The notes under the pieces: generated by a model
Told to the model about the DNA's origin: nothing
The model's database searches: none
Seen by the model: only the letters and a program-made list of their open reading frames with translations
Shown here: piece by piece, positions 1 through 14,005 of the stretch
Numbering within the stretch: the stretch's first letter is position 1
Layout of the letters: every line of letters begins with the position of its first letter
Virus record (IMG/VR): IMGVR_UViG_3300047319_000837
Coordinates: 1 to 31,756 of that record
DNA: 31,756 bases
Origin: a virus
Strand: one strand, 5' to 3'
Made by a program: the position numbers and the translations under genes

Positions 1-353
1 CAGCATGAGAGCGCCTCGCGGTTGCAGGTGCGGCACACGATCCCGCCCTCGGGCGTGACGACGCGGGTGAGCAGCAGCTCGTGACCGCGCGGGCACAGCT
101 TGCGGCGCGCGCGGTACGCCCAGCTCTTGCGGAGCTCGTTCTCGCTGCGCGTGATCGGCTCGAGGTGGTGGAGCGCGCGGCAGTGACGTCGCCGGCACAG
201 GTGGTCGAGCTCGAGCCCGGGTGCGATCGGGCCGTGCTTGTCGGTCCACGCGGCGATGTGCGCGCGCGTCCGGCCGTGGAACGCGTAGCCGTCGCGGTCG
301 AGTCGCCCGGTCGCGAGCTCGCAGCCGAAGATCGGATCGCGCTCGGCGCTCAC
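1..353 (-). CDS. HNH endonuclease, C-terminus cut by window edge
   Basis: The frame opens with GTG at 353, overlapping the TGA of the preceding gene (GTGA), and runs off the left edge, so at least 117 residues are encoded. Visible residues include LELDHLCRRRHC at about 47-58, then HHLEPITRSEN, which is the DH/C-C/H-N core of phage HNH_3-type nucleases. A second Cys/His group (KLCPRGH and IVCRTCNR) probably binds structural zinc. HNH proteins of this kind often lie close to terminase and packaging genes, and as a class they nick or cleave DNA. It is the last complete start of the left-arm operon seen here. A further ATG at 6-4 might begin another frame. Family assignment is firm; the role in packaging is inference. 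Confidence 0.85.
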   Translation of the reverse strand, partial: MSAERDPIFGCELATGRLDRDGYAFHGRTRAHIAAWTDKHGPIAPGLELDHLCRRRHCRALHHLEPITRSENELRKSWAYRARRKLCPRGHELLLTRVVTPEGGIVCRTCNREALSC

Positions 354-601
354 GGCTCGACGCGCTCCCATCGCCAGCGTCGCCATGACCAGCGCTGGCG
401 CTCGAGCGTGATGGTGCCCGCGCGCTCGTCGATGGCCGTCACGACTGATCGAGGCCTGAACCACTGCGTGCAGCGCAGCGCGAACGCTCGCAGGCGCCAG
501 AAGCGACCGAGGCCGCTGGACGAGTAGCTGCGCGTAACGGACATGCCGGCGCGAAAGTTCGCCGCATCGTTCGGATCGCCTAGAGTGATGAGGTCGCTCA
601 T
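350..601 (-). CDS. Hypothetical small basic protein
   Basis: This 83-aa frame begins at ATG 601, which overlaps the stop of the RusA gene as ATGA; an ATG three codons upstream (610) is also possible but would deepen the overlap. The N-terminal half (SDLITLGDPNDAANFRAG) looks soluble. The C-terminal half is rich in Trp and Arg (RQRWSWRRWRWERVEP), which would suit nucleic-acid or membrane contact. No family was recognised. It sits between the resolvase and HNH genes in the same translationally coupled operon, so it is probably expressed early with the replication and recombination functions. Confidence 0.6.
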   Translation of the reverse strand: MSDLITLGDPNDAANFRAGMSVTRSYSSSGLGRFWRLRAFALRCTQWFRPRSVVTAIDERAGTITLERQRWSWRRWRWERVEP

Positions 602-1053
602 GGTCGCCATTCCTCGACGAGGATCGACGCGCCAACCTCGTCAGCGTTGCGCGCGTACCACTTCTTGACGATCAGCTCGACGACGCGGCTATCGTCGTCG
701 AACGCGAGGCCGGTGAGCGAGTCGAGCGTCGAACGCGCGATCTTGTCCGCGTCGGGCTTGCTGGTCGGGCGCAGCGGCGCGCTGGGCTTGAGCCGATCCG
801 CGTTGCGCCCGGTGCCGTAGTGGCCACGCGGACGCGGGAACCGGAAGGTCAGCGAGACCGCGAGCGGCGTGTCGCTGATCGGCGCGTCGGGCCCGTTCGC
901 GCGACACGCGGCCTTGATCGCGTTGTCCCACGCTCGGAGCGCGCGCTGGTTCGCGCTCGAGCCGCTGGGCACGTGGCGCGCACGACCGGCGATCAGGATC
1001 GCGCGACCCGAGCCCTTCGATGCCGGCACGCCGCGGACTTCGAGCGCGATCAC
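598..1053 (-). CDS. rusA: RusA-family Holliday junction resolvase
   Basis: RusA dimers resolve four-way DNA junctions formed during phage replication and recombination. The 151-aa length is typical of the family. The signature is clear: KPDADKIARSTLDSLTGL at about 99-116 followed by FDDDSRVVELIVKKWYA. D101, D103 and one of D119-D121 correspond to the family's metal-binding aspartates, and K104 lies at the usual basic position. The start is GTG 1053, overlapping the TGA of the small upstream gene (GTGA), and the stop overlaps the next start. It is part of the left-arm operon, where it would act on intermediates produced by the replisome and the plus-strand exonuclease. Confidence 0.9.
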   Translation of the reverse strand: MIALEVRGVPASKGSGRAILIAGRARHVPSGSSANQRALRAWDNAIKAACRANGPDAPISDTPLAVSLTFRFPRPRGHYGTGRNADRLKPSAPLRPTSKPDADKIARSTLDSLTGLAFDDDSRVVELIVKKWYARNADEVGASILVEEWRP

Positions 1054-1211
1054 TCGAACGTCCTCGGCTCGGGCGGCGCGGCGGTGACATCGAGCACCAT
1101 CGCGATCTCACGGATCAGCTCAGCGAACGCGACGAGGTGCTCGCCCTTGAGCAGCTGCGCGGCCCCGTAGAGCTGGATGCGCAGCAGCGCGAGCTTCTCC
1201 TCGTCGCTCAC
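1050..1211 (-). CDS. Small hypothetical protein, 53 aa
   Basis: The frame runs from GTG 1211, which overlaps the stop of the upstream gene as GTGA, to TGA 1052-1050, which overlaps the rusA start as GTGA. The product begins MSDEEKLALLRIQLYG and is mostly predicted amphipathic helix. No family was recognised. Support comes from perfect coupling on both sides and the absence of any other frame filling the gap. It would otherwise leave an unexplained 150-bp hole in an operon with almost none. Confidence 0.6.
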   Translation of the reverse strand: MSDEEKLALLRIQLYGAAQLLKGEHLVAFAELIREIAMVLDVTAAPPEPRTFE

Positions 1212-1516
1212 TCGTCGGCTCCGTCGTCGTCACCCTTCGTGGCCTTCTTGATCTTTGCCGTCTTGACGCCCTCCGAGATGAACGCTTTCTTCTCGACGCC
1301 GGTCGACGTCTCGTAGACGTACTCCGTGATCCCGTGCTCGCGCAGCAGCTTGTCGACGACGCTCTTGGCCTCGACGACGCCTTGCCCGGCCTTCGTGGCC
1401 TTGCCGCGCGCCTTCTCGAGCATTTCGCACGCGTCGTCGAGCGCCTTGATCGGCTTGGGCGGCTCGGGCTCGTCGTCGCGCCGCGTGCCGGGGAGTTCTG
1501 CTTGCTTCTTGCCCAT
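1208..1516 (-). CDS. Hypothetical Lys/Glu-rich phage protein
   Basis: A 102-aa, highly charged protein from ATG 1516. It has a basic N-terminus (MGKKQAELPG), a central helical region (ALDDACEMLEKARGKATKAGQGVVEAKSVV shape), and an acidic tail (KGDDDGADE). No catalytic motif was recognised. It is the first gene after the only sizeable gap in the left-arm operon. A run of purines (GAAGAAAGA) about 10 bases upstream is the only possible ribosome-binding site. Because that gap contains a 9-bp inverted repeat, this gene and those downstream may be controlled separately from the methyltransferase. Confidence 0.65.
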   Translation of the reverse strand: MGKKQAELPGTRRDDEPEPPKPIKALDDACEMLEKARGKATKAGQGVVEAKSVVDKLLREHGITEYVYETSTGVEKKAFISEGVKTAKIKKATKGDDDGADE

Positions 1517-1539
1517 GTGGTGGTCTTTCTTCGTCGGAT

Positions 1540-1578
1540 GTGGACTAGTTTTGTGGTGAGCGAGTGGATCTAGTCCAC
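1540..1578. repeat. 9-bp inverted repeat in operon gap
   Basis: GTGGACTAG at 1540-1548 is exactly inverted as CTAGTCCAC at 1570-1578, with a 21-nt loop. A nested GTGGA-TCTAG-TCCAC palindrome lies at 1565-1578. It lies in the 69-bp gap between the adenine methyltransferase and the 102-aa gene. There is no T-tract, so an intrinsic terminator is not supported; an operator or RNA-processing signal is possible. Confidence 0.6.
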
Positions 1579-1585
1579 CCGCTAT

Positions 1586-2500
1586 TCAGGTGATCGGGGT
1601 GGCATCTCGCTCGACGCGCCATGCCCAGCACAGCGCGCGGATCTCGTCAGTGGCATCGGCCGCGTGCGCGTAGAACAGCGCGTGCGGGAACGGCTGGGCG
1701 TTCGCCCGCTCGGGTGGGATGCCGGGCGGCGGCTCGAACGAAACGCGCTCGCCGCGGGGGAGCAGGATCAGCTCCGTGTGCTTGATCAGCTCGGCGAACC
1801 ACTTCGTGCTCGGGTCGAGCTTGAGCAAGAACACGAAGCGGGTGTGCGCGTAGGCGTCGATCCACGGCCGCACGTTCGAGTACGGCGGGTTGACGAATAC
1901 GCGCCAGTCGTGGCCGATCGTCGCCGCGCGTTGCAGGCCGTCCTCCTCGAATCGGAGGCAGAACGTCCGCGACGCCTGCACGTGGGACAGCTCGTTGGCG
2001 CACGGGTCGAGATCGAACTTGCCGATCGCATCGGTGATCCACACCGGCGTGCACCACGTGTCGCGGTCGATCTCCGGCTCGGGCGGCGGGACCAGCGATA
2101 GCCCGGACGCCGCGCGCGGCCGATCGTCGAGCCCGGCTTCGCGCATGGTCGGCAACACGAGATCTCCGGGCGCATCCGTACGTGCGCCCGGGAATCGCTC
2201 CTCGACGAACCCGGCGTAGCGCATCGCATCGAGGGCCACGGTTGGATCCACGCGTTGCTCGCCCAGGTAGACCGACCAGCCCTTGGCCTTCGGGCCGCTC
2301 GAGGGCCAGCGCGCGCGCGCAGCGACCAACGCCCGACCGAGGTCGAGCCGGGCGCGCGCGGCGACCTGGCGCGCGGTCTCGGCCTGCTGCTCGGCGCGCT
2401 CCTCGTGCGCGCGAGCCTCGCGCAGCGCTCGGAGTGCAGCCTGGATCGCAGCGGTATGCTGCGCGAGATCACTCTCGATGATCGCGGGGATGGGCTTCAT
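1586..2500 (-). CDS. DUF3102-like / Dam-type N6-adenine DNA methyltransferase fusion
   Basis: The C-terminal half matches phage N-6-adenine methyltransferases (Dam family): WCTP at 149-152, DLDPCAN at 163-169, the catalytic NPPY at 204-207, STKWF at 231-235 and RGERVSF at 249-255. It would transfer methyl groups from SAM to adenine N6 in DNA, protecting phage DNA from restriction or marking it for control. The N-terminal 125 residues form an Ala/Glu/Arg-rich coiled coil followed by a segment resembling DUF3102 (KGWSVYLGEQRVDP). ATG 2500 is chosen because it overlaps the upstream stop as ATGA; the frame stays open upstream only as a shadow of the next gene. The 304-aa length fits a two-domain protein. 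Confidence 0.85.
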   Translation of the reverse strand: MKPIPAIIESDLAQHTAAIQAALRALREARAHEERAEQQAETARQVAARARLDLGRALVAARARWPSSGPKAKGWSVYLGEQRVDPTVALDAMRYAGFVEERFPGARTDAPGDLVLPTMREAGLDDRPRAASGLSLVPPPEPEIDRDTWCTPVWITDAIGKFDLDPCANELSHVQASRTFCLRFEEDGLQRAATIGHDWRVFVNPPYSNVRPWIDAYAHTRFVFLLKLDPSTKWFAELIKHTELILLPRGERVSFEPPPGIPPERANAQPFPHALFYAHAADATDEIRALCWAWRVERDATPIT

Positions 2501-2850
2501 CGCGCCGCCTTCGGATCGTGCTCGCCGGCGTGGCCGTACTCGAGCTTGCAGCGCCTGGTGTTTCCGCACTCGCAGGCGACGTACTCGGCGCATTGGCCGA
2601 GTACGTCGCCGTACTCGCTGATCGGGACGAGCCGATGCCCGAGGTGCCGGGCGAACCACGCCGCGTCGATGCGCCCGTGGTACTCCACCTCGAGCCGCAC
2701 CGCACCGGCTGCGGCGAGCAGCGGTGCGAGCGCAGCGATCGCCGCGGCATGCTTGCACAGCGAGGCCATCGTGTCGTCCATGTGATTCGCGTCGTCGAAC
2801 CCGTGGGTCTCATTGCAGTCGAGGCAGTGGACGTTCCAGTCGGTGCTCAC
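2497..2850 (-). CDS. Hypothetical Cys-rich protein
   Basis: A 117-aa protein from GTG 2850, overlapping the upstream stop as GTGA. It has a CLDC pair near the N-terminus, a helical centre, and a C-terminal CECGNTRRCKLEYGHAGEHDP segment whose Cys and His spacing suggests a zinc-binding knuckle. The C-terminal GHxGxH pattern is seen in other phage proteins of unknown role. No enzyme family was recognised. It is coupled to the adenine methyltransferase gene downstream. Confidence 0.65.
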   Translation of the reverse strand: MSTDWNVHCLDCNETHGFDDANHMDDTMASLCKHAAAIAALAPLLAAAGAVRLEVEYHGRIDAAWFARHLGHRLVPISEYGDVLGQCAEYVACECGNTRRCKLEYGHAGEHDPKAAR

Positions 2851-3341
2851 AGGCTCTTGCTCCTGGCGCTCGTCGCCTTGCTCTTGGTCTCATTCGCCTG
2901 CGCGGCCTCGCGCAGGATCTGCCCGGCATCAGCGCCGAGCCCCCGCAGCTCGTCCGCGATCGCTTCCTCGCGCCAGGGCAGCACGCCGTGGCGCAGCTCG
3001 CGGGTCAACGCTGCGATCGCCTGGTGACGCGCCTGATCGCGCTCGCGCTCGGCGATGCGCTCGTCGGCCCGGCAGCGATCGCACACGGCGAGCTCGCGCT
3101 TGCTGAGCAGCTTGTCGCCGCGGGCCGCGAGCTTCCGGTTGCAGACCCGCGCGGCGTCGATCGCCTCGGCCGTCATGCCGACGGGCGTCGAGCAGCCGCG
3201 GCACGGCCAGCTCTCGAGGATCGCGGGCGGGTGCCAGTCGTACACGTCGGCGCCCTTCGTGCGCGTGGCGTCGCGCAGGCTCGCGGCCTGGCGCAGGAGG
3301 TCGGCGGCGATCTCGGGATCGGTGGCGAAGTCGCGGGTCAT
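2847..3341 (-). CDS. Hypothetical protein with CxxC pairs
   Basis: A 164-aa product from ATG 3341, overlapping the stop of the replisome organizer gene as ATGA; the upstream extension of the open frame is a shadow. It contains CRGC and CDRC pairs that could form one zinc site, separated by a basic helical region (KLLSKRELAVCDRC), and a long charged C-terminal helix. No family was recognised. Its position directly downstream of the replication protein makes a replication-accessory role plausible but unproven. Confidence 0.65.
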   Translation of the reverse strand: MTRDFATDPEIAADLLRQAASLRDATRTKGADVYDWHPPAILESWPCRGCSTPVGMTAEAIDAARVCNRKLAARGDKLLSKRELAVCDRCRADERIAERERDQARHQAIAALTRELRHGVLPWREEAIADELRGLGADAGQILREAAQANETKSKATSARSKSL

Positions 3342-4165
3342 CGGGCGTTGCCTCCGTCGAGTGACAGGATGGGTTGCTCGGCGTGCCGAGCGATCAGGTC
3401 GCGGTATCGGGTGCGCGCCGGGTCGAGGTATTTCGCGATCGTCGTCGGGCCGAACAGCGTCTCGGGGCGCAGGTAGCGGCGCATTTTGTCGTCGGCCTTC
3501 CACTCGTCGCTGCAGTACGCGACGACGGCGCGAAGGTCCCATTCGGTGAGCCCGTCGCGGAGCCGACCGGTGATCAGCCGAACGTGCTCGGCTGCGCCGC
3601 CGTACGCGACGCCCGAGTGCTCGCCGAGCTTGGCCAGGACCCGGGAGACAGCCGCCAGCTCGGCTGGCGAAGGAGCGTGCTTGCCGGGCCGGCCGCCGCG
3701 CGCGGGGGTTTCGACCACATGATCTCTCTGATCCGGAACCCTATCCGGAACCGGATCCGGAGGAAGATCCGGAACCGGATCCGGAGGGTTCGCGCGTGCT
3801 TCGTTCTGATCGAGCGACTGCTTGGCACGGTTTCTCCGTGATTCACCACTCTTGAGCCCACCGATGCGCGCAGCCTCGCGCTTCGTGTTGAGGTACTCGA
3901 TCCGCTCGCCGGCACCTCTGATCCGCAGCCCGCCGCGGGCCGTGACGGCCAGATCGGCCGCGAAGACGGCATCCGCGAAGCCTGGTCGCTCGGCGGCGCG
4001 GTCGATGTCGCCCGGGCGCAGGACGTCGCGCTCGAAGTCGTAGCAGAGCGCGAACACGGCCAGCAGCCGGCCCATCGCGTCGAAGCGCGAGATGCCGAGC
4101 GCATCGGCCAGGTCAGCCACGCGCGGATCGCGGAGGAACTTGTCGTCGATCGACATGCGGGCCAT
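3338..4165 (-). CDS. Phage replisome organizer / replication initiation protein
   Basis: A 275-aa protein from ATG 4165, which overlaps the upstream stop as TGATG. The N-terminal domain (about 1-105) starts MSIDDKFLRDPRV and resembles the winged-helix origin-binding half of phage replisome organizers. A Pro/Asp linker at 126-146 (PDPVPD units) separates it from a C-terminal domain at about 195-250 with KADDKMRRYLRPETLFG, the hallmark of the conserved phage Phg_2220_C domain. Proteins of this architecture bind the phage origin and recruit the host helicase. The linker is encoded by five 12-bp iterons (3731-3790), as expected if the origin lies inside the gene, like lambda O. No helicase or loader was seen in this window. 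Confidence 0.8.
   Translation of the reverse strand: MARMSIDDKFLRDPRVADLADALGISRFDAMGRLLAVFALCYDFERDVLRPGDIDRAAERPGFADAVFAADLAVTARGGLRIRGAGERIEYLNTKREAARIGGLKSGESRRNRAKQSLDQNEARANPPDPVPDLPPDPVPDRVPDQRDHVVETPARGGRPGKHAPSPAELAAVSRVLAKLGEHSGVAYGGAAEHVRLITGRLRDGLTEWDLRAVVAYCSDEWKADDKMRRYLRPETLFGPTTIAKYLDPARTRYRDLIARHAEQPILSLDGGNAR
3731..3790. repeat. Five 12-bp iterons, candidate replication origin
   Basis: Units begin at 3731, 3743, 3755, 3767 and 3779. Each starts with ATCCGGA followed by a variable pentamer (ACCCT, ACCGG, GGAAG, ACCGG, GGGTT), and each contains the palindrome TCCGGA. A comparatively AT-rich stretch (about 3711-3730) lies beside the array. Iterons inside the linker of a replication initiator gene are the arrangement of the lambda origin. 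The coding reading is a PDPVPD repeat, so selection on protein sequence alone could also produce this. Confidence 0.65.
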
Positions 4166-4362
4166 CAGCGCTTGCGCTCCATCGCCGCGACGTGCCGGGC
4201 GCCGCCCTCGCGAGCCTTGCGCGCGCTGTGCTTCCAGTCGCCCGTACGCTCGCAGCTGCAGCGCCAGCGGTGGATCGGTCCGCCTGGCGCGTGCTCGCCG
4301 AGATCGACGGCCAGCCCCACGAATCGCGGGCTGGTCTCGATCGTGATCGCGTGCGCCGTCAC
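4165..4362 (-). CDS. Small hypothetical protein
   Basis: A 65-aa protein starting at GTG 4362, overlapping the upstream stop as GTGA. It contains RWRCSCERTGDWKHSARKAREGG, in which the CSC pair followed by a basic helix ending in HVAAMERKR resembles small phage proteins that carry a short nucleic-acid-binding element. No family name can be given with confidence. It is tightly coupled to the replisome organizer gene. Confidence 0.6.
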   Translation of the reverse strand: MTAHAITIETSPRFVGLAVDLGEHAPGGPIHRWRCSCERTGDWKHSARKAREGGARHVAAMERKR

Positions 4363-4961
4363 CCCTCGCCTCCGAGGTCCACGTCAGCGCGCCCGCACTC
4401 GGCCAGTCCGCAGCCGTAGCCGTGCTCGTCCACGCACCGCTGGCGCCGATCGGCGGATGCGAGGGCCAGATCGACCTCGATTGCCATGTTCTCGATCGCG
4501 GCCTGGTTGGCGGCCTCGAGGTCGGCCAGCAGCCCTCTCGCGACCTCGGGCGTGATCGCGCCGACCTGCGCGCACTCGACGACGTATTGCCTGCTCGGGA
4601 TGCCAGCGAGCGGCACCCCGTCGGGCGGCCCGAGGTCGGCGGTCCCCTGGTAGCCGGGGTGCTCGTAGTGGATGCGCCCACCAACCATCTCCACGCGCGC
4701 AGCCTCGCGCAGCTCCGCCCGCGCCTGGTCCTCGATCGCCAGCTCCTCGCACGCGTCGTAGACCAGCGCGTCCAGGCGCTCCTCGAAGCGCTCGCGTCGC
4801 CAGTCGCGCGGCTTGGCGAGGTCGAGCAGTCCGTAGCGATCGCGCCCGAGCTCGAGCCGGCCGAGCACGCGATCGATCACGCGCAGCTCGTCATGGCTGG
4901 CTGCTGGCAGGCGGCCCGCGAGGGAGGCGAGCAGGCCGCGGCGCTGGAGGTCGGAGGTCAT
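4359..4961 (-). CDS. Hypothetical helical phage protein
   Basis: A 200-aa product from ATG 4961, which overlaps the upstream stop as ATGA. The segment at about 25-75 reads RVIDRVLGRLELGRDRYG followed by KPRDWRRERFEERLDALVY. The ExxxD-like pattern with preceding DW and RYG recalls all-alpha nucleotide pyrophosphohydrolase-like or DUF5664-like phage proteins, but the full metal-binding motif is not evident, so no activity is claimed. A segment around 110-130 (RIHYEHPGYQGTADLG) and four C-terminal cysteines follow. It lies second in the left-arm operon. Confidence 0.6.
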   Translation of the reverse strand: MTSDLQRRGLLASLAGRLPAASHDELRVIDRVLGRLELGRDRYGLLDLAKPRDWRRERFEERLDALVYDACEELAIEDQARAELREAARVEMVGGRIHYEHPGYQGTADLGPPDGVPLAGIPSRQYVVECAQVGAITPEVARGLLADLEAANQAAIENMAIEVDLALASADRRQRCVDEHGYGCGLAECGRADVDLGGEG

Positions 4962-5563
4962 GCGGCCTCCGATGCGAGCGCGAGTGGACTCGTCTGCGCC
5001 ACGAGATCGACGAGCCACCGAGCGAACGCGGGCGGCGTGCGACGTCGCTGTTGCGCCGAGCAAAACTTGATGTGCGCCGGCGCCGTGCCGCCGCGGCCGA
5101 TGCCGGTCCGCCCCTTGCGGGATCCGGCTACCCAGTGGGTCGGCGTGCCGCCGGTGCGAATCGTCGACAGAACAAGCGCCCGATCGACGCCCACGAAGTA
5201 GAGGCGCGTGCGCTTACGGGCAACGTGACCCCATGCGCACTGGTCGACCTCGACCACGAATCCGCCGTGCTCGTCGAGTAGCTCGCCGGGCCCGGGCAGC
5301 CTGGCGTGTGACCAGAGCTTCGATCGCGCAGGGTGCTCAAGCACACCGCCGAATCTCTGCACCGCTGCGACGGCGATCGGCGCGCAGTCATGCTCGTCGC
5401 CCTTGTACAGGTGGCGTAGTTCACCCCATGGGCCGCACGGCGGATGCGCGACGACCGGATGCGGTCCGGCGTACAGCCGCGCGTCACGCTCGCGATCCCA
5501 CGGGTCGACATCGGGCATTCCGAAGTACGGGCCACCGCGCTCGACGTACAGCGCGGCGACCAT
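4958..5563 (-). CDS. Cytosine DNA methyltransferase-like protein
   Basis: First gene of the left-arm operon, 201 aa. It has HPPCGPWG at 40-47, with C43 in the position of the catalytic Cys of C5-cytosine methyltransferases, then LEHPARSKLW at 75-84 and QCAWGH...RKRTRLYFVG at 108-125, resembling motif VIII (Q-R-R). The N-terminal SAM-binding FxGxGG motif is not seen, so it may be a reduced or non-canonical methylase-like family common in phages. ATG 5563 (or GTG 5566) is preferred to ATG 5590 because an AGGGAGGT ribosome-binding site lies 8 nt upstream. A 7-bp hairpin (5576-5596) overlaps that site. Confidence 0.7.
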   Translation of the reverse strand: MVAALYVERGGPYFGMPDVDPWDRERDARLYAGPHPVVAHPPCGPWGELRHLYKGDEHDCAPIAVAAVQRFGGVLEHPARSKLWSHARLPGPGELLDEHGGFVVEVDQCAWGHVARKRTRLYFVGVDRALVLSTIRTGGTPTHWVAGSRKGRTGIGRGGTAPAHIKFCSAQQRRRTPPAFARWLVDLVAQTSPLALASEAA

Positions 5564-5575
5564 CACCGCGACCTC

Positions 5576-5596
5576 CCTGCCGCGAAACACGGCAGG
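5576..5596 (-). promoter_or_regulatory. Hairpin overlapping the operon's first ribosome-binding site
   Basis: CCTGCCG at 5576-5582 and CGGCAGG at 5590-5596 form a perfect 7-bp inverted repeat with a 7-nt loop. On the minus-strand transcript the 3' arm runs directly into AGGGAGGT, so the hairpin could hide the site or serve as a repressor operator in the divergent promoter region. Confidence 0.6.
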
Positions 5597-5625
5597 TTGC
5601 GGGCCGCCGTGTCGCGACTTAGGAT
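5597..5625 (+). promoter_or_regulatory. Candidate sigma70-type promoter, leaderless
   Basis: TTGCGG (5597-5602), 17-bp spacer, TAGGAT (5620-5625), then exactly 6 nt to ATG 5632. Transcription would start at or next to the start codon of the first lipoprotein gene. No Shine-Dalgarno of normal strength precedes this ATG. Confidence 0.55.
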
Positions 5626-5631
5626 CGCGGG

Positions 5632-5958
5632 ATGATCAGATTCGCGCTGGTGATGGTGCTTGTGGGGTGCATGGGGGATCCGGCTGCGATGCCCGACGCG
5701 AGCACCGGCGGCACGATCGAGCCGCCGCCCCAATGCCCGCCGCTGCCGTCGAGCGATGGCTTCGACTTCTACGGCGAGGCGTGCACCAGCGCGCCGAGCC
5801 CGGCGCTGACCTTGTGCCATGACGCCGCCGACAACGCGGCCACCTGGGGTTGGTGTGTCAGTGGCACGTGCCGGCCGCAATCCGGATCGCCGTGCCCGCA
5901 CTGCCCAGCCGGCACGGTGCACGTGACCATGGACGGCGCCGAGTACTGCGCACCGTAG
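5632..5958 (+). CDS. Cys-rich lipoprotein
   Basis: A 108-aa protein with a short signal peptide and lipobox (LVGC, lipidated Cys at 13), then a Pro/Ser/Thr linker and a small domain with eight further cysteines, ending GWCVSGTCRP...CPHCPAGTVHV. It would be exported, lipidated and held in the envelope, with disulfide bonds stabilising the rest. The style is common among Myxococcota surface lipoproteins. On a temperate phage it may be a moron gene expressed from the prophage, for example for superinfection exclusion; this is inference. It has its own promoter, divergent from the left-arm operon. Confidence 0.75.
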   Translation: MIRFALVMVLVGCMGDPAAMPDASTGGTIEPPPQCPPLPSSDGFDFYGEACTSAPSPALTLCHDAADNAATWGWCVSGTCRPQSGSPCPHCPAGTVHVTMDGAEYCAP

Positions 5959-5964
5959 ATGCGG

Positions 5965-5970
5965 TAGCGT
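5965..5970 (+). promoter_or_regulatory. Possible -10 element (TAGCGT)
   Basis: TAGCGT lies exactly 6 nt before ATG 5977, the same offset as at other starts here. No good -35 is visible at 16-18 bp, so support is weak and rests on the shared offset. Confidence 0.3.
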
Positions 5971-5976
5971 CGGGGC

Positions 5977-6276
5977 ATGTGGAGAGCAGCGCTGGTGGTG
6001 ATCGCCGCATGTCGCCCGCCGGCGCCCGCCGGTCCCGAGGTGACAACGATCGGCAACGGGCAGGTGATGATCCGCGCAGAGGCCGACGACGGTGAAGGCG
6101 TCGCCTCCCAGGAGGCCTACCGCCGCGCGAACGAACTCTGCCCGTCCGGCTACCAGGTGGTCGACAGCAGGACTGGCGTGGTGCGGTCGTACGAGCGCGT
6201 CGCCGTGTTCGGCCGGCGCGTCATCGAGACGCCCGAGGTGACGCTGGTCGTACGCTGCACACCTGCGCATCCGTAG
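5977..6276 (+). CDS. Small lipoprotein
   Basis: A 99-aa protein with a very short signal peptide ending in the lipobox VIAAC (Cys12). The mature part contains YRRANELCPSGYQVV followed by a strand-rich region ending EVTLVVRC. This layout (A...C..GY.v then two strands and a terminal Cys) resembles small CC0125-like lipoproteins, whose function is unknown. It follows the first lipoprotein by 18 bp and may share its transcript. It ends 32 bp from the convergent XRE gene, leaving little space for a terminator. Confidence 0.7.
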   Translation: MWRAALVVIAACRPPAPAGPEVTTIGNGQVMIRAEADDGEGVASQEAYRRANELCPSGYQVVDSRTGVVRSYERVAVFGRRVIETPEVTLVVRCTPAHP

Positions 6277-6308
6277 CGCGTTGCGAGAATCGCTGACGAG
6301 ACTTACGG

Positions 6309-6500
6309 TCACGCCAGCAACCTCGCGACCGTGCAGCCGAGCACCTCGGCCACCGCCCCGAGACGATCGATCCTCGGGGACATCTTGCCGGCCTCCCAGT
6401 CACACCAGGTGGATTGCGCCACGCCGGCGCGCTTGGCGCAGTCCCGCTGCAGGAGGCGCTTCCGCTCGCGGAGCGCCCGGATGTTTTGGGCAATGGTCAC
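6309..6500 (-). CDS. XRE-family (Cro/CI-like) repressor, 63 aa
   Basis: The protein is essentially one helix-turn-helix domain: IRALRERKRLLQRDCAKRAG, then VAQSTWCDWEAGKMSPRID (recognition helix and loop) and LGAVAEVLGC. It has no dimerisation or cleavage domain, so it resembles short Cro-like or Cox-like regulators rather than a full CI. The start is GTG 6500, the only start before an in-frame stop, with no separate ribosome-binding site. A 15-bp palindrome, TTCGG-tcatt-CCGAA, lies within its own promoter region at 6511-6525, so autoregulation is likely. It faces away from the plus-strand HTH gene, giving the usual lysis/lysogeny switch layout. Confidence 0.8.
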   Translation of the reverse strand: MTIAQNIRALRERKRLLQRDCAKRAGVAQSTWCDWEAGKMSPRIDRLGAVAEVLGCTVARLLA

Positions 6501-6506
6501 TCCGGA

Positions 6507-6536
6507 TTGATTCGGTCATTCCGAACGCCGCGTCAA
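6507..6536 (-). promoter_or_regulatory. Candidate promoter of the XRE gene
   Basis: On the minus strand, TTGACG (6536-6531), 18 bp, then AATCAA (6512-6507), and 6 nt to GTG 6500. The -10 is poor (3 of 6), but the -35 is good and the 6-nt offset matches the other starts. The palindromic operator lies in the spacer. Confidence 0.4.
6509..6527. promoter_or_regulatory. Operator-like palindrome O1
   Basis: GATTCGG-TCATT-CCGAACG, with a 7-5-7 layout and a perfect inner 5+5 bp inverted repeat (6511-6525). It lies between the candidate -35 and -10 of the XRE gene. Confidence 0.55.
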
Positions 6537-6541
6537 GCCAC

Positions 6542-6560
6542 GAATCGGACCGTACGAATG
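6542..6560. promoter_or_regulatory. Operator-like site O2
   Basis: GAATCGG-ACCGT-ACGAATG shares the left half-site GAATCGG and the 5-bp spacer with the other sites, but its right half is degenerate (4 of 7). It lies in the intergenic region between the XRE gene and the divergent HTH gene. Confidence 0.4.
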
Positions 6561-6623
6561 TTCCGCGGACGAAGATGGGGCGTGCCCCGGAGAGAAGTAA
6601 GACGGCGAGGATCCGCGTATCCG

Positions 6624-6950
6624 GTGAGAACTCAATGGCAAGAGGACGTCCGCGCCCGGCTGGTGGCGCTAGGGATCACCTCGAAAGATCTCGCCCGCAA
6701 AGTCGGCTGCGCGCAATCGACGATGCATGACACCTTGACCAACCCGGCCGCGAGTCACTCGAGCCTCGTGCCGAGGATTCACGCGGCGATCGGCTGGGAC
6801 CCGCCACCGGATCCGCAGTCTCCGCCGCTACCGTCGGCCGACGCTATCGAGATGGGCCACCTATTCGACAAGTTGCCCGAGGATGTCCGGCGCAAGCTGC
6901 GCGACGATGCCGAGTTCTACCTACGATTGGCCACCAGCAAGCCGCGCTGA
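6624..6950 (+). CDS. HTH DNA-binding protein, divergent from the XRE gene
   Basis: A 108-aa product if translated from GTG 6624. The N-terminal domain (WQEDVRARLVALGITSKDLARKVG, then CAQSTMHDTLTN) is a helix-turn-helix of the lambda-repressor-like fold. The tail has a Pro-rich linker and a helical segment (LPEDVRRKLRDDAEFYLRL). GTG 6624 places the HTH at the N-terminus as in relatives. Earlier in-frame starts at 6582 (GTG) and 6558 (ATG) would add an Arg-rich extension and cannot be excluded; none has a strong ribosome-binding site. It is probably the opposing regulator to the XRE protein (Cro- or CII-like). Confidence 0.65.
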   Translation: MRTQWQEDVRARLVALGITSKDLARKVGCAQSTMHDTLTNPAASHSSLVPRIHAAIGWDPPPDPQSPPLPSADAIEMGHLFDKLPEDVRRKLRDDAEFYLRLATSKPR

Positions 6951-7011
6951 TCCGACGATTCGGCACTGCGCTCCATTGCGCTGCACCCCCTGTACGTGTC
7001 TTCCTGGGCGG

Positions 7012-7152
7012 ATGGGGCTGAAGAGGGTCAGCAAGACAGAATTCGTGTGGCTGATGATCTTGCTGGCTGCGGTGGATCGCGAACGGTACCGCGAGCTTCG
7101 GGCGCGCGGCTGGTCCGAGGCTCGTGTGTTCGAATCGGAAAGTCCGAATTGA
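7012..7152 (+). CDS. Small hypothetical protein, 46 aa
   Basis: The frame from ATG 7012 encodes a hydrophobic central helix (EFVWLMILLAAVDRERY) followed by a basic and acidic tail (ARGWSEARVFESESPN). It might be a small helical or membrane-associated peptide. Codon usage is consistent with the neighbours, but there is no strong ribosome-binding site and no family was recognised. Its 3' end overlaps the operator-like site O3 (7132-7150). Confidence 0.4.
   Translation: MGLKRVSKTEFVWLMILLAAVDRERYRELRARGWSEARVFESESPN
7132..7150. promoter_or_regulatory. Operator-like site O3
   Basis: GAATCGG-AAAGT-CCGAATT has the same 7-5-7 layout as the others, with 5 of 7 complementary positions. It lies just upstream of the TTGACG -35 at 7157. 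Confidence 0.5.
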
Positions 7153-7156
7153 GATC

Positions 7157-7185
7157 TTGACGGGTTCGTTGCGAATCGGTATATC
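7157..7185 (+). promoter_or_regulatory. Strong sigma70-type promoter, leaderless
   Basis: TTGACG (7157-7162), exactly 17 bp, TATATC (7180-7185), and then 6 nt to ATG 7192. It is the best-matching promoter in the window. The perfect operator palindrome O4 covers the 3' spacer and the -10, so a bound repressor would block RNA polymerase. Confidence 0.75.
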
Positions 7186-7191
7186 CGATTC
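7173..7191. promoter_or_regulatory. Perfect operator palindrome O4
   Basis: GAATCGG-TATAT-CCGATTC is a perfect 7+7 bp inverted repeat with a 5-bp centre that is also part of the -10. It ends on the base before ATG 7192. Confidence 0.7.
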
Positions 7192-7488
7192 ATGACCAAC
7201 GCACTCGCCTCCCCCGCCATCGCCTCTCTGGCCACTCTCGTCGCCAACGCCCAGCGCGCGCTGCCACCCGGGCCAGCGCGCGTGGCCAAGGGCTCGATCG
7301 TCCGCGTCACCTCCGACGGCACCATCGGTGAGGCGGTGTGGGCCTCCCCGATCACGGTCCTGCTGGTCCACGGCGACCGCTCGATCGGTCGCGGGCCCTG
7401 GATCATGTACCGCGACCAGCTCGAGGTCGCATCCCCCACGGACGCCGCGGCCTACTGCCAGCGCTGCGCCGCCCTCCCCGGCGAGTGA
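7192..7488 (+). CDS. Hypothetical protein, leaderless, first gene of the rightward operon
   Basis: A 98-aa protein. ATG 7192 lies 6 nt after the -10 and has no ribosome-binding site, so its mRNA is predicted to be leaderless. An Ala-rich N-terminal helix precedes a strand-rich part (GSIVRVTSDGTIGEAVW, then ITVLLVHGD and GPWIMYRDQLEV) that could form a small beta-barrel. The C-terminus has a CQRC pair. No family was recognised. Its promoter carries the repressor-like operator, so it is likely an early or lysogeny-controlled gene. Confidence 0.7.
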   Translation: MTNALASPAIASLATLVANAQRALPPGPARVAKGSIVRVTSDGTIGEAVWASPITVLLVHGDRSIGRGPWIMYRDQLEVASPTDAAAYCQRCAALPGE

Positions 7489-7555
7489 CCGCACGAGCAT
7501 CCCCGCAGCGCCTGACGCCCGCGGTCAGACGTTGCCGGGACCGCTCGTGCGGTCA
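7486..7555 (+). promoter_or_regulatory. Long stem-loop leader before AGGAGG
   Basis: A perfect 13-bp inverted repeat pairs 7486-7498 (TGACCGCACGAGC) with 7543-7555. The 44-nt loop contains a nested CTGAC...GTCAG stem. The 3' arm abuts the AGGAGG ribosome-binding site (7555-7560) of the next gene. It could control translation or protect the RNA; no known riboswitch class was recognised. Confidence 0.55.
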
Positions 7556-7565
7556 GGAGGGTTTC

Positions 7566-8207
7566 GTGACCATTTTCAGTTTGCATTCCGATCCGATCGG
7601 CCTGTTCGGCGTCCCCACCGACGCCGCTTCCGGGCTCGAGAGCCTCAACGCGGCCGGCTTCACGGCGCGGGTCACCGACGAGCAGCCGCGCGGGCCCTAC
7701 CGCCGGTACACGACGGGCGCCAGCCCGGAGATCGTCGAGGGCCTCCCGGGGCTGGTCGAGGACTCGATCGACGTCACGCCCGACCCGAGCGCGATCCGCC
7801 CCGGGGCCATGGCGGTGCTCGAGCGGGCCTACCAGATCGCCGAGTTGATCATCGTCTCGGGCGGCGGCTCGGACGTCGACCTCGCGCAGCTCGCCTCGTG
7901 CCTCAGTACGCCTCCCGAGAGGCTGCTCGCCCACGCCCTCGTGATCGCCGGGGAGCGCTTCGAGCGCTTGGAGACGACCTACATGTGCTCGTGGTGCCAG
8001 GCGGCGGCGAAGGGGCACGCCGAGCACCTGGCCCTCCAAGCGTACACGCTCGCGGGGGTGCGCGAGCACGGCCCGCGCTGCGACCACAGCCCGGTCACCA
8101 AGGCGATCAGGGGCTACTTCGCGGCGAAGGACAGCGGGCTCACCGCGGCGCCGGCTGCCGAGCGGACGCTCCGCGAGCTCGCGGGCATCCCCGGAGCCGG
8201 CGCTTGA
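7566..8207 (+). CDS. Hypothetical protein with Cys/His site
   Basis: A 213-aa protein from GTG 7566, with AGGAGG five bases upstream, the strongest ribosome-binding site in the window. The middle region is helical; the C-terminal half contains TYMCSWCQAAAKGH and HGPRCDHSP, whose CxxC plus CxH arrangement suggests a bound zinc. A Gly-rich turn (IIVSGGGSDVD) sits at about residue 95. No family was recognised. It follows a long stem-loop leader that may regulate it. Confidence 0.65.
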   Translation: MTIFSLHSDPIGLFGVPTDAASGLESLNAAGFTARVTDEQPRGPYRRYTTGASPEIVEGLPGLVEDSIDVTPDPSAIRPGAMAVLERAYQIAELIIVSGGGSDVDLAQLASCLSTPPERLLAHALVIAGERFERLETTYMCSWCQAAAKGHAEHLALQAYTLAGVREHGPRCDHSPVTKAIRGYFAAKDSGLTAAPAAERTLRELAGIPGAGA

Positions 8208-8443
8208 GGGCGGATCACGTGCTCGCGGCGATCCGCGTGCTCGAGCTCGCGCGCGCGGTCACGCAGGACGACCCCGCGGCGATCACCGCGATGGTCGGCG
8301 CGATCGCCCTGGCCGCGAGCCAGACCGGTGACGCGCAGGGCATCCTCGAGGTCGCAGCCGAGGGGCTCAGGCTGGCTTCGGCGAAGGCGCGAGCGTCCGG
8401 CGCCGCGACGCCCGGGCCCCGCCGCGAACCGGTGACCTCGTGA
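8204..8443 (+). CDS. Hypothetical Ala-rich helical protein
   Basis: A 79-aa frame that could start at TTG 8204, overlapping the upstream stop as TTGA, or at GTG 8219. The product is nearly all helix (VLAAIRVLELARAVT, then AAITAMVGAIALAASQ and ILEVAAEGLRLASAKA), in a tetratricopeptide-like or helical-hairpin style. It is coupled on both sides (its stop overlaps the next start as GTGA). No family was recognised. Confidence 0.55.
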   Translation: MRADHVLAAIRVLELARAVTQDDPAAITAMVGAIALAASQTGDAQGILEVAAEGLRLASAKARASGAATPGPRREPVTS

Positions 8444-8646
8444 GCCGGCGCCGCTACGTCGACGGCCCGGCCGGGCTCGCGCTGGTTCCCGAGGATCCGC
8501 CGCTGCGGCCCGGCGACCTCGAGATCGATCTCGCCGGGCTCACCGAGGAGCGCATCCCCGAGCTCGCCGCGCCGCGCACCATCACGCCGCGCATCGACGA
8601 GGTGGCACTCGCCGAGCTGGTCGCCAGGTCGCGAGGCTCCCGGTGA
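8440..8646 (+). CDS. Small hypothetical protein, 68 aa
   Basis: From GTG 8440 (GTGA overlap with the preceding stop) to TGA 8646, overlapped by the next GTG. The product is acidic and proline-containing (LVPEDPPLRPGDLEIDLAGL) with a short C-terminal helix. No family was recognised. Support is positional: coupling on both sides and consistent coding bias. Confidence 0.55.
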   Translation: MSRRRYVDGPAGLALVPEDPPLRPGDLEIDLAGLTEERIPELAAPRTITPRIDEVALAELVARSRGSR

Positions 8647-9128
8647 GCCGGCTCGACTACGACCAGGTCGACCTCGACGCAGCAGCAGAGCACCGGCGCG
8701 AGCGCGATCACCACCGTGAGCCCGGGTCGCGGCAGCCGCGGCGGGACGACCGCGACCTCAACCCGCGACGCGCGTTCCAGGCCGGCGTGGTGGCCGGGCA
8801 CCCGAGCGCGACGATCGAGATCCCCTGCCCGATCCCCGACTGCGGCTCGAGCGTCTATGCGCCGGGCGACAGCGATCGCGAGCGGATCGACTGCACCGAC
8901 TGCGGCGCCGCGCTGCTGACCCGGCTCGGCCTCGACGGCACCGTGACGCTCGAGGTGACCGAGGACGCCGTGGTCACCGACGACCCGGATGCGCCGCCCC
9001 CGCCGATCAGCGCTGGACACCACGTCGCCGCGTTCGACGCAAGCGAGCCACCTGACCTGTTTCCGCTCGGCGGCTGGCAGCGCCGGACATTCGAGGCGAT
9101 CAACGCCGGAATGAGCAAGAAGCGATGA
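8643..9128 (+). CDS. Hypothetical zinc-ribbon protein
   Basis: A 161-aa protein from GTG 8643. The N-terminal 50 residues are very charged (Arg/Asp/His) and probably disordered. The centre holds IPCPIPDCGSSVYAPG...ERIDCTDCGAALL at about 61-97, a four-Cys zinc ribbon like those of small transcription- or replication-associated proteins. The C-terminus is acidic. The ribbon suggests DNA, RNA or protein contact, but no specific family was recognised. Confidence 0.65.
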   Translation: MSRLDYDQVDLDAAAEHRRERDHHREPGSRQPRRDDRDLNPRRAFQAGVVAGHPSATIEIPCPIPDCGSSVYAPGDSDRERIDCTDCGAALLTRLGLDGTVTLEVTEDAVVTDDPDAPPPPISAGHHVAAFDASEPPDLFPLGGWQRRTFEAINAGMSKKR

Positions 9129-9154
9129 TCACAACTTCACACGACGGAGAGACG

Positions 9155-9478
9155 ATGACCAAGATCCAGTATCGGCAGGGCGATGTTTTCCTCGAGCGCA
9201 CCGCGATTCCCGCGGGCGCGGTCGAGATCCCCCAGGGCAAGCGCGGCACCGTGCTCGCGGAAGGCGAGGTCACCGGGCACGCGCACCGGATCCCGTCGCG
9301 CCACGCCAAGCTCTACCGCGCCGAGACCGACGCGCGGTACCTGCGCGTGATGGGCCCGGCGCCCGTCGCGCTCCAGCATGAGGAGCACACCGCGGTCACG
9401 ATCCCGCCCGGCGACTACCGGGTGACGATCCACGCGGAGTACCAGCCGGGCGAGCTGCCTCGCCAGGTGGCCGACTGA
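9155..9478 (+). CDS. Cupin-like protein with HxH and HEEH motifs, partner of DUF6745
   Basis: A 107-aa protein. ATG 9155 is preferred over 9125 because CGGAGAG lies 5 nt upstream and relatives begin with a QGDV segment. The sequence is strand-rich: YRQGDVFLERT, LAEGEVTGHAHRI (H42, H44), LQHEEHTAV (H75, H78), then PPGDYRV and PGELPRQVAD. The four histidines suggest a metal site in a cupin-like barrel; this is inference. From family knowledge, proteins of this type are found beside DUF6745 genes in diverse bacteria, as here. The biochemical function is unknown. Its stop overlaps the next start (TGATG). Confidence 0.7.
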   Translation: MTKIQYRQGDVFLERTAIPAGAVEIPQGKRGTVLAEGEVTGHAHRIPSRHAKLYRAETDARYLRVMGPAPVALQHEEHTAVTIPPGDYRVTIHAEYQPGELPRQVAD

Positions 9479-10872
9479 TGGCGAAGATCAACAAGCTGAC
9501 TCCAGATCAGGAGTCCCGGCTCGTGTCGTTCCGCGAGGAGCAACGCCAGATCGGGACTCGCACCGGGCATGATCTGGAGTGCGAGTCGATCGGCCGAGTG
9601 GCCGTGATCGAAGCGTACAAGGAGATCGGCGTCGAGGCACCCGCCCTGGTCTTGTGGGCGCAGTCCCCGCTCCAGGCCCTGCTGATGCATTGGGCGCTCC
9701 GTCACATGATGGCCCCGGCGGCTGCGGGCACCGGGCCGGCGGTCGACCTCTCGAGTTCCGGATCGCTCCGGGACCAGCTCGGGGGCCAGCTCGGGGACCA
9801 GCTCTGGGGCCAGCTCCGGGGCCAGCTCGGGGGCCAGCTCCGGGACCAGCTCGGGGGCCAGCTCCGGGGCCAGCTCGGGGGCCAGCTCCGGGACCAGCTC
9901 GGGGGCCAGCTCGGGGACCAGCTCTGGGGCCAGCTCCGGGGCCAGCTCGGGGGCCAGCTCTGGGGCCAGCTCGGGGGCCAGCTCTGGGGCCAGCTCTGGG
10001 GCCAGCTCTGGGGCCAGCTCTGGGGCCAGCTCGGGGGCCAGCTCGGGGACCAGCTCCGGGGCCAGCTCGGGGACCAGCTCCGGGGCCAGCTCGGGGGCCA
10101 GCTCCGGGGCCAGCTCCGGGGCCAGCTCTGGGGCCAGCTCGGGGAGGCCTATAACCAGACCTGGTGTTGGGGGCAGTGCGAGAGCTACTGGACGGCATGG
10201 GCGAGGTTCGCGATCAGCGTCGGCGTCAAGGTCACTGACGAGCAAGAGCGCCGACTCCGCCTGTGGGAGCAGCTCGCTCGCGCCGCGTTCATGGCGCTGT
10301 CCTGGCGCGGCGTCTCGATCCTCGTGCAGCACCCGAGCGTCGCGCGGTTCGACGCGTCGCATCGGCTGCACTGCGCCGATGGCCCCGCGCTCGCGTGGCC
10401 TGACGGATATTCGGTGTACGCGGTCAGCGGCATCCGCCTGACGCCCGAGCGCGGCGCCGCGATGGTGGCGGGAACGCTCACGGCGACCGAGATTCGCGAC
10501 GAGCCGAACGCCGAGGTACGGCGCGTGCTCGTCGCCCAGTACAACGCCGGCGACAGCGGACGCTACCTGCGCGACGTCGGCGCCAAGGTGATACACGCGG
10601 ACGTTGATGCGCTCGGGCTGTCGCGGCGGCTCCTGCGGATCGATCAGGAGGGCGACGAGCCCTTCGTCGCGGTCGAAGTCACCAACTCGACGCCCGAGCC
10701 CGACGGCCACCGGAAGCTCTACACGTTCCGCTGTCACCCCCAGCTCCGGCCGCTGCCGATCCGCGGCATCCGCTCCGACTACGGAGCCCCGCAGGAGATG
10801 AACTGCCAGAACGCGATCGCGTCGACCTACGGCTACGCCGGCGCCGACTACCGCCCGGTCGTGGAGACCTGA
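9478..10872 (+). CDS. DUF6745-like protein with 31 tandem GQL repeats
   Basis: A 464-aa protein. The N-terminal region (1-97, with [11 protein letters not shown]) and the C-terminal region (about 225-464, with [64 protein letters not shown] and [12 protein letters not shown]) match what is known of DUF6745, which has no defined activity. Between them, residues 98-221 are 31 copies of a tetrapeptide (R/G/W)(G/D)QL, encoded by 12-bp units. Related proteins carry other short repeats at the same place. It forms a coupled pair with the cupin-like gene. The repeat may form a solenoid or amyloid-like rod; this is speculation. Confidence 0.8.
9769..10140 (+). repeat. 31 tandem 12-bp repeats
   Basis: Every unit is [C/G/T]GG-G[G/A]C-CAG-CTC. 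Only base 1 (giving Arg, Gly or Trp) and base 5 (giving Gly or Asp) vary; the other ten bases are invariant. The period is a multiple of three, so copy-number change keeps the frame. All six frames stay open, giving long spurious ORFs. Confidence 0.95.
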
Positions 10873-10875
10873 TCC

Positions 10876-11139
10876 ATGCCCGCGATCACGCTCTCCGACT
10901 GGAAGCGCGGCGCTGGTCTCGCCGGCGACGAGTGGACGCACCGGCGCGAGCGGGACGGCTGCGTCGAGATCTACTGGCCCGGCCAGCTCGACGGGCGCGA
11001 CGGCTGGTGGTGGGCGATAGGGACCGCTGACGAGATGTTCCTCGCGGGTGGCTGGGCGGCGGGGTCGGTGCGCGACCGCAACGTGGACATCGCGCGGGCG
11101 ATCGTCCGATTCGCGCCGGCGCCGGCGAGGGTCTCGTGA
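10876..11139 (+). CDS. Hypothetical Trp-rich protein
   Basis: An 87-aa protein from ATG 10876, with GGAG about 10 bases upstream. It contains WTHRRERDGCVEIYWPGQLD and GWWWAIGTADEMFLAGGW, a compact strand-rich Trp cluster. No family was recognised. It follows the DUF6745-like gene by 3 bp and precedes a small membrane protein by overlap, so the three are probably co-expressed. Confidence 0.6.
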   Translation: MPAITLSDWKRGAGLAGDEWTHRRERDGCVEIYWPGQLDGRDGWWWAIGTADEMFLAGGWAAGSVRDRNVDIARAIVRFAPAPARVS

Positions 11140-11342
11140 GCGTGCTCGCGCTCGCCCTGATCTTCGCCGGCGTGTTCGCGCTCGGCTACTCGTTCCGCTG
11201 GGCGCTCGAGCAGCATCCGCCCCTGCCTGCGCTCCCACCGGCGACCGCCCGGGCCATCCGCCGAGCTCGCCGGGCAAACCGCATCGAGGCGCGCGAGATT
11301 CAGGCGTCGCGCTGGTTTCGCGACGACGAGGAGACCCGGTAG
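11136..11342 (+). CDS. Small single-pass membrane protein
   Basis: A 68-aa protein from GTG 11136 (GTGA overlap). An N-terminal hydrophobic segment (VLALALIFAGVFALGYSF) is followed by a Pro-rich hinge and a basic amphipathic tail (RAIRRARRANRIEAREI). The topology suggests an inner-membrane anchor with a cytoplasmic tail. No family was recognised; a holin-like role is less likely given the distance from the lysis genes. Confidence 0.6.
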   Translation: MSVLALALIFAGVFALGYSFRWALEQHPPLPALPPATARAIRRARRANRIEAREIQASRWFRDDEETR

Positions 11343-11756
11343 ATGGCGGCCGACCCCAAGAAGCCCAGCTGGAGGACCGTGATCAAGCGGATGGACCCCG
11401 AGTACCTCTACGCTGAGGATCTCGGCGGGCCCGGCACGACCGCCGACGTCGAGGTCGTCGACAGCGGCAAGTGCACGATCAAGAACCCGGGCGGCAAGAA
11501 GGAGACTCTCTATCTCGCGTTCAAGGGCAAGAGCAAGAAGCTCGGCCTGAACGCTACGATGGCCAAGACGCTCACGAGCCTGTGCGGCTCGGATCACTGG
11601 GGCGACTGGCGCGGTTGGATCACGCTCGTAGTGATCCACAAGCGGATGCGCGATCCGACGACCGACGACATCGAGGACATGGACGTCATCAGGATCGCGC
11701 CCGAGCGACCGCGCCGAGCTCCATCGGGTGCAGCGCCGTCCGAGGCCAAGCCGTGA
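11343..11756 (+). CDS. Conserved phage protein of recombination neighbourhoods
   Basis: A 137-aa protein starting immediately after the preceding stop. The central part (KKETLYLAFKGKSKKLGLNATMAKTL, then LCGSDHWGDWRGWITLVVI and MDVIRIAPERP) matches a small phage family with the pattern LNxTNAKxL...G.D...W.G..I.L. From family knowledge, members often sit beside RecT/RecE-type genes. Here the exonuclease is the second gene downstream. A role in single-strand or recombination-complex binding is plausible but not shown. The C-terminus is a basic, Pro/Ala tail. Confidence 0.65.
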   Translation: MAADPKKPSWRTVIKRMDPEYLYAEDLGGPGTTADVEVVDSGKCTIKNPGGKKETLYLAFKGKSKKLGLNATMAKTLTSLCGSDHWGDWRGWITLVVIHKRMRDPTTDDIEDMDVIRIAPERPRRAPSGAAPSEAKP

Positions 11757-12103
11757 GCTCCCCGATGAAGCCGAGCGATCCAGCGTACTGGATGCTCGAA
11801 GAGGGGCTCTCGGATCCGAGCAAGAGATCGACGCCGACGGTCCACCGCGACGGCTGCTACATCTGCGACGACCCGGAGTTCTCGCTCATGGGGCTGCCGC
11901 TGTGCTTTGGCTGCCACGTCTGCGGCGAGCATGTCGCGGCCGACGATTGCGTGTGCGAGGAGTGCGGCCACGACCACAGCGAGCCGCCGGACATCACGAT
12001 CGCGCAGGCCACTGCGTGGTCGAGCGACGGAGGCAGGCCGTTCGAGGAAGGGTGGTGGTTCGATAACTGCGACCCATTCGACGAGCTACAGGCGGCGCCA
12101 TGA
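11753..12103 (+). CDS. Hypothetical protein with two Cys clusters
   Basis: A 116-aa protein from GTG 11753 (GTGA overlap; ATG 11765 is an alternative). Cys pairs occur as GCYICDDPEF, LCFGCHVCGEH and CVCEECGHDH at about residues 35-76, enough ligands for two zinc ions in a ribbon- or RING-like arrangement. The acidic C-terminal part is Trp-rich (EEGWWFDNCDPFDEL). No named family was recognised. It lies immediately before the exonuclease gene and overlaps it. Confidence 0.6.
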   Translation: MSSPMKPSDPAYWMLEEGLSDPSKRSTPTVHRDGCYICDDPEFSLMGLPLCFGCHVCGEHVAADDCVCEECGHDHSEPPDITIAQATAWSSDGGRPFEEGWWFDNCDPFDELQAAP

Positions 12104-13080: not shown

Positions 13081-13134
13081 CAACGCTTTCGGCAGCGCGC
13101 CGTTGGTCATGCAGTAGTGCGCTAGGAGCAGGGT

Positions 13135-13267: not shown

Positions 13268-13279
13268 CGGAGGTATCTA

Positions 13280-13841: not shown

Positions 13842-14005
13842 CCCCTCCATCCCGAATCCGCATGACCGCCGCCGCGATGGTCGCGCCCGTGGCCGTGGCC
13901 GTGGCCGTGCTGGCGCTCCCCGTGCCTGACCTGCTTGTCGTGCCGCTGATTCTTGGTGCGGGATGGGTGTCCGGTCGCGTGCTGGACAGGCGGCTACGGC
14001 GGTGA
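13838..14005 (+). CDS. Small hydrophobic protein, 55 aa
   Basis: From GTG 13838 (GTGA overlap). It has a basic N-terminus (TPPSRIRM), two hydrophobic stretches (AAAMVAPVAVAVAVLALPV and DLLVVPLILGAGWVSG) and a basic end (RVLDRRLRR), so an N-in/C-in hairpin in the membrane is likely. No family was recognised. Confidence 0.5.
   Translation: MTPPSRIRMTAAAMVAPVAVAVAVLALPVPDLLVVPLILGAGWVSGRVLDRRLRR

Follow-up and report, generated by a model that had tools for sequence, protein, structure and literature searches.

The origins of lambdoid phages consist of iterons and an AT-rich region located in the middle of the O gene (PMC7466680). In Bacillus subtilis, DnaD recognizes 5'-TnnT-3' repeats in single-stranded DNA beside the DnaA sites (PMC10201434), and in iteron plasmids Rep binds in a sequence-specific manner to the single-stranded DNA of the unwinding element (PMC4081077). 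An active origin, oriJ, is present in the Rac prophage (PMC3945230). The origins of most phages have yet to be mapped, and how phage initiators open DNA is a standing question. A signature made of two modules, one with a period that is not that of codons, can be recognised without homology, locates an origin base by base and makes that question testable. Here we describe such a signature in a soil phage that appears to carry the start point for DNA copying inside its own replication-protein gene.

Genome context and initiator gene

The window, that is, the whole stretch of DNA analysed, is the entire IMG/VR record (31,756 bp; 70.3% GC). Because an integrase, an exonuclease VIII and a Dam-family methyltransferase are encoded in it, the record is probably a fragment of a temperate phage. 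A megablast search of positions 1 to 20000 of the window against named phages gave no match. The features discussed below are the following.

3338 to 4165, minus strand: replisome organizer or replication initiator gene, 275 amino acids (MARMSIDDKF...), assigned from Pfam PF09524, PHROG matches and relatives with the same N-terminal domain
3818 to 4165, minus strand: N-terminal MARMSIDD domain (residues 1 to 116), which defines the family, predicted to be winged-helix-like and proposed to bind the iterons; conserved in 13 proteins
3793 to 3825, minus strand: module A, with an 11-bp register, CCAAGCAGTCG / CTCGATCAGAA (degenerate) / CGAAGCACGCG; first bases of AAGCA at 3823 and 3801
3786 to 3802, minus strand: junction from module A to module B, GAAGCA-N5-GAACCC (AAGCA-N6-AACC), aligned across 11 family members
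3728 to 3787, minus strand: module B, made of 6-bp-phased nCKGnT units in which the third codon base is T, supported by counts of third-position T (T3) and of in-phase hexamers; it holds the five ATCCGGA copies
3425 to 3640, minus strand: C-terminal Phg_2220_C domain (HMM match), proposed to load the helicase; the domain is also present in annotated phage replication proteins
3706 to 3855, no strand assigned: relatively AT-rich stretch of low stability over both modules, 58% GC, in the lowest 0.34% of 150-bp windows

The gene, which has an alternative start at 4156, had been interpreted from its sequence as encoding a replisome organizer, and the searches confirmed this assignment. Thus, the C terminus of the product matched Phg_2220_C (PF09524) with an E value of 1.7e-13 (50.9 bits, against a curated cut-off of 27), and the PHROG matches of the protein included 'replication initiation protein'. 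By tblastn, the C-terminal domain was found in phages of Klebsiella, Lactobacillus, Aeromonas, Vibrio and others, in several cases in annotated replication proteins, and similarity to phage proteins annotated as O was confined to this domain. The predicted structure comprised an N-terminal domain of helices plus a beta-hairpin, a disordered linker (residues ~117 to 166) and a helical C-terminal domain, with AF2 pLDDT values above 90 across most of the N-terminal domain. Fold matches of the latter were weak and limited to the MarR-type winged helix, and sequence and fold searches with the initiator identified no protein of known structure as a confident relative.

A Dam-family adenine methyltransferase gene (PF05869; 1586 to 2758, minus strand) is located near the initiator gene, and positions 3715 to 3795 contain five GATC sites, a density within the top 0.12% of 80-bp windows. 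Control of the origin by Dam and GATC was considered and discarded, given that about half of the relatives show no GATC enrichment and that a Dam gene was detected in only 2 of 11 records. Elsewhere in the window (9765 to 10144, plus strand; ORF 9478 to 10872), a 12-bp repeat (GCTCGGGGGCCA) is present in ~32 copies and encodes a protein repeat that precedes a DUF6745 domain.

The ATCCGGA array and its composition

The sequence-only reading had reported five ATCCGGA copies at 12-bp steps, and these proved to be real and exact. The copies start on the plus strand at 3731, 3743, 3755, 3767 and 3779, with a spacing of exactly 12 bp, and span positions 3731 to 3785. The chance expectation of three consecutive copies with up to two mismatches was 0.00 in 100 dinucleotide shuffles, and TRF scored the array at 63 for period 12 and at 49 for period 6. 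As had also been stated, the array falls in Pro/Asp linker codons (codons 127 to 146 of the minus-strand gene) between the winged-helix-like N-terminal domain, which presumably binds DNA, and the Phg_2220_C domain. Every Pro-Asp in the array is encoded by CCG GAT, and the 6-bp units on the gene strand read CCGGAT CCGGTT CCGGAT CTTCCT CCGGAT CCGGTT CCGGAT AGGGTT CCGGAT. The 12-bp period is a higher-order period of these units, with two units in each repeat.

The accompanying remark on AT richness was fair in relation to a genome of 70% GC. Positions 3709 to 3768 have 53% GC, which places them in the lowest 1% of 60-bp windows. Local stability over 50 bp is at its minimum in the segment starting at 3719 (lowest 0.5%). 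The tract adjoining the repeats is AT-rich in relative terms only, with 53 to 58% GC compared to 70% for the record, values within the lowest 0.3 to 1% of windows. GC skew across the 31.8-kb record showed no inflection and was uninformative on the origin.

Constraint on the DNA among relatives

Searches with the initiator protein and with an alignment of its N-terminal domain yielded 12 distinct relatives. Ten of these are encoded on viral contigs and the other two on contigs of bacterial MAGs (labelled Thermoleophilaceae and Chloroflexi). All of them have the MARMSIDD N-terminal domain, while the C-terminal regions differ in many. The linker amino acids vary among them (PDPV, VPDT, SASA, PPPP and SPSP), and the two DNA modules are shared. 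The sequence-only reading would have been refuted by relatives that conserved the protein repeat and lost the DNA repeat; the opposite was found, since the linker protein changes and the DNA pattern stays, which argues for constraint on the DNA rather than only on the protein. For the counts that follow, the protein was kept fixed and codons were redrawn from the contig's own usage (2000 draws in the case of AAGCA pairs).

Third-position T was counted over the 20 codons past the conserved junction motif in the 13 genes, with expectations taken from contig codon usage. In the window, 11 of the 20 codons ended in T (2.8 expected), and in the family as a whole the count was 176 of 260, compared to 46.0 expected (z ~22). 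Similarly, module B had a lower GC content than the average synonymous recoding in 13 of 13 genes. Units of nCKGnT in phase, a consensus that covers CCGGAT, CCGGTT, TCTGCT, TCTGTT and ACTGTT, numbered 7 in the window (1.4 expected) and 82 in the family (16.5 expected), the latter comparison being descriptive only because the consensus was read off the same sequences; the anchor of module B was also defined on the sequences being counted. Two to six copies of TCCGGA were present in most relatives, spaced within the tract by 12, 18, 24 or 36 bp, all multiples of 6. The core was absent in L016, L021 and L008 despite the T3 phasing being kept. Since T3 persists while the linker amino acids change, selection acts on the DNA, and the repeat is constrained at that level and not merely as codons. 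Thus, the earlier description of 'five iterons' holds for the five exact copies but not for the array as a unit, which represents one of several forms of the 6-bp-phased tract seen among the relatives.

Directly upstream of this array within the gene is module A. The window contains two AAGCA copies 22 bp apart, the sole pair at 11, 22 or 33 bp among its 25 AAGCA words (P = 0.024 for this pair taken alone), and GAACC is found one further 11-bp step beyond. As the window has only two clean copies, the case for module A comes mainly from the relatives. At the corresponding place in these, six copies at exactly 11 bp are present in L009 and L022, and fewer in the others. Over the 13 linkers, 34 AAGCA pairs at 11, 22 or 33 bp were observed, whereas 2000 synonymous recodings gave 1.97 on average and never more than 7. 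Because 11 is not divisible by three, successive repeats fall in different reading frames, and they cannot be a by-product of a short protein repeat; module A is under selection at the DNA level. AAGCA pairs were absent in 3 of the 13 family members (L008/L015, L010/L019 and L021), L016 had no pair in register, and three relatives carry different upstream repeats. The junction between the two modules was identical in kind in most of the 11 members aligned, with single-base variants in a few.

Interpretation as a probable intragenic origin

We regard it as probable that this region is the replication origin of the phage, lying within the codons for the linker of its own initiator, with module A as the binding array and module B as the opening tract; the protein contacts, the strand opening and the helicase loading are the proposed parts of this reading. 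The location of the origin is likely and well supported. The anatomy, the constraint on the DNA, its conservation and the directional order from A to B in many phages are observed features. The best reading would be a lambda-style intragenic origin combining initiator-binding iterons with a strand-opening or single-stranded-DNA-loading tract. The previous suggestion of a lambda-type origin was upheld as regards the anatomy (intragenic location and DNA-level constraint) and was not supported as regards ATCCGGA as the binding site, the 11-bp non-codon period belonging to the adjacent AAGCA module instead. The binding iterons are thus probably those of module A, and the reported array would be the opening tract.

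On the basis of analogy with lambdoid origins (PMC7466680) and with the reading of 5'-TnnT-3' repeats by DnaD (PMC10201434), the following mechanism is proposed. The winged-helix-like N-terminal domain would bind the AAGCA repeats as duplex DNA, with protomers stacked along one helical face (11 bp being one turn). Initiator bound to module A would then open the adjoining module B, which is relatively AT-rich and in which one strand has a T at every third or sixth position. One strand of module B may be held by the initiator in a 3- or 6-base register, after which the C-terminal Phg_2220_C domain would bring the replicative helicase.

The main competing explanation is that of the sequence-only reading, in which the initiator would bind the five 12-bp ATCCGGA units as its iterons and unwinding would take place at the AT-rich positions 3706 to 3730. 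It would account for the exact 12-bp spacing, the palindromic TCCGGA core with its two to six copies in most relatives, and the low stability that begins at 3719. However, three relatives without TCCGGA keep the T3 phasing, the spacing of the core shifts by 6-bp steps (12, 18, 24 and 36) and not by helical turns, and a separate 11-bp array adjoins, so that we consider this explanation unlikely.

The two other explanations deny the region a role as an origin. That the array is a regulatory operator, or a protein-binding array controlling an early operon, is highly improbable: operators can take the form of repeats close to a regulatory region, and a putative DNA-binding or repressor gene is present at 6414 to 6950 (weak PHROG matches), but the array is located within the coding sequence of the initiator itself, ~340 to 440 bp from the start, and this placement recurs in diverse replication genes. 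Least probable of all is a function at the protein level only, with a disordered Pro/Asp or Ser/Ala linker growing by replication slippage. The predicted disorder of the linker and a period of 6 or 12, a codon multiple, would agree with it, but with the protein fixed there is strong constraint on synonymous sites, differing amino-acid repeats keep one DNA pattern, and the 11-bp module cannot come from a protein repeat.

Occurrence of the same layout in other phages

To return to the proposed two-module origin, its pattern was also found beyond the family of the window. A homology-free scan of viral contigs for four AAGCA copies at an 11-bp period gave at least 120 stretches, and 109 non-redundant arrays among the matches listed were used for context counts. 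Among these matches, 81 of the 109 arrays were held by a same-strand ORF of 150 to 450 amino acids, the spacers had diverged to a mean identity of 0.63, and 56 arrays had a strong 6-bp period downstream, compared to none with one upstream. The downstream hexamers differed by lineage (AATGTA, AAAGAG, GATAAG, CCCATC and CCTGTA). Most of the array ORFs sampled matched DUF6291, DUF1376 or DnaB_2, or the PHROGs replication initiation protein, replisome organizer or DnaD-like helicase loader. At a 12-bp period, 36 of 117 AAGCA arrays among the matches listed were in ORFs of more than 450 amino acids, as ordinary protein repeats would be.

Raw array counts were rejected as evidence. There were 90 arrays for ACGAA at 11 bp, 108 for AAGCA at 10 bp and at least 120 for AAGCA at each of 11 and 12 bp. 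Because other spacings and the reversed core also match, such counts do not discriminate, whereas context (ORF size, direction and downstream hexamers) does. The reversed core ACGAA at 11 bp (L144 to L233), intended as a negative control, occurred in same-strand ORFs of 200 to 300 amino acids with A-rich tracts downstream, which suggests that many ACGAA arrays may be origins with another core, the same layout in other lineages. Four AAGCA 11-bp arrays (L073, L074, L102 and L115) were outside long ORFs and are possibly intergenic origins or minisatellites. Nor was a strict 3-bp period, as in DnaA-trios, retained as a reading for all phages, given that outside the family the period is 6 (lag-6 identity, 0.53; lag-3 identity, 0.32).

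Repeats of 11 bp with other cores were present in replication genes of the Staphylococcus phage IME1361_01 (AAATCAACAAC) and the Lactobacillus phage Lc-Nu (AAGTGTCCATC), and likewise in those of the Pseudomonas phage KLEP17-4 (GAACAGCAGGT) and the Aeromonas phage 2_D05 (11/22 bp). The rep gene of Citrobacter phage phiNP (L237:1333-1444), which encodes the same C-terminal domain, has a different intragenic array in its linker, made of 15-bp repeats (CCGTCAAAATCTGA core).

A broader proposal is that AAGCA-type 11-bp iterons followed by an always-downstream 6-bp tract constitute an unrecognised origin grammar, set in the linkers of many unrelated initiator families (MARMSIDD/Phg_2220_C, DUF1376, DUF6291 and DnaD-like), with the tract acting as a single-strand opening or loading track. 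We hold this proposal in even balance. The two-module pattern was not found described in the open-access literature, the subscription literature being mostly outside the search. If the shared grammar is true, it would allow origins to be located from the sequences of very many uncultured phages and an origin-binding function to be given to the DUF1376 and DUF6291 domains; the pattern beyond the family of the window is thus worth testing.

Comparison with known systems

The locus resembles the lambda and Stx lambdoid origins in that direct repeats form an array within the initiator gene, located between the parts encoding the N- and C-terminal domains, and a relatively AT-rich tract adjoins it. 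It differs from them in the 11-bp period, in the AAGCA core and in its second element, which is an ordered 6-bp-phased tract. The initiator matches Phg_2220_C, and comparison of its N-terminal domain with O is limited to weak winged-helix fold matches, with no sequence match to a solved structure.

With the unwinding region of B. subtilis oriC (DnaA-trios and DnaD Recognition Element) the locus shares a T every three bases on one strand, adjoining a duplex initiator array. This likeness holds for the family of the window only, because the general AAGCA set has a 6-bp and not a 3-bp period, and here the elements are inside a coding gene. Iteron plasmid origins follow a similar two-step logic, with duplex iterons and then specific capture of a single strand in the adjacent unwinding element; in the phage, by contrast, the array is inside the coding sequence of the initiator, for which no homology to Rep proteins was found.

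The Rac prophage of Escherichia coli K-12 offers a parallel in a different initiator family (DUF1376). Its ydaU gene (NC_000913.3, 1421119 to 1421976; L466:1459-2529) has AAGCA at 1421471, 1421493 and 1421504 (0, 22 and 33 bp), and AAAGAT/ACAGAT hexamers come after these repeats inside the gene. The ydaU repeats may possibly be the physical location of oriJ.
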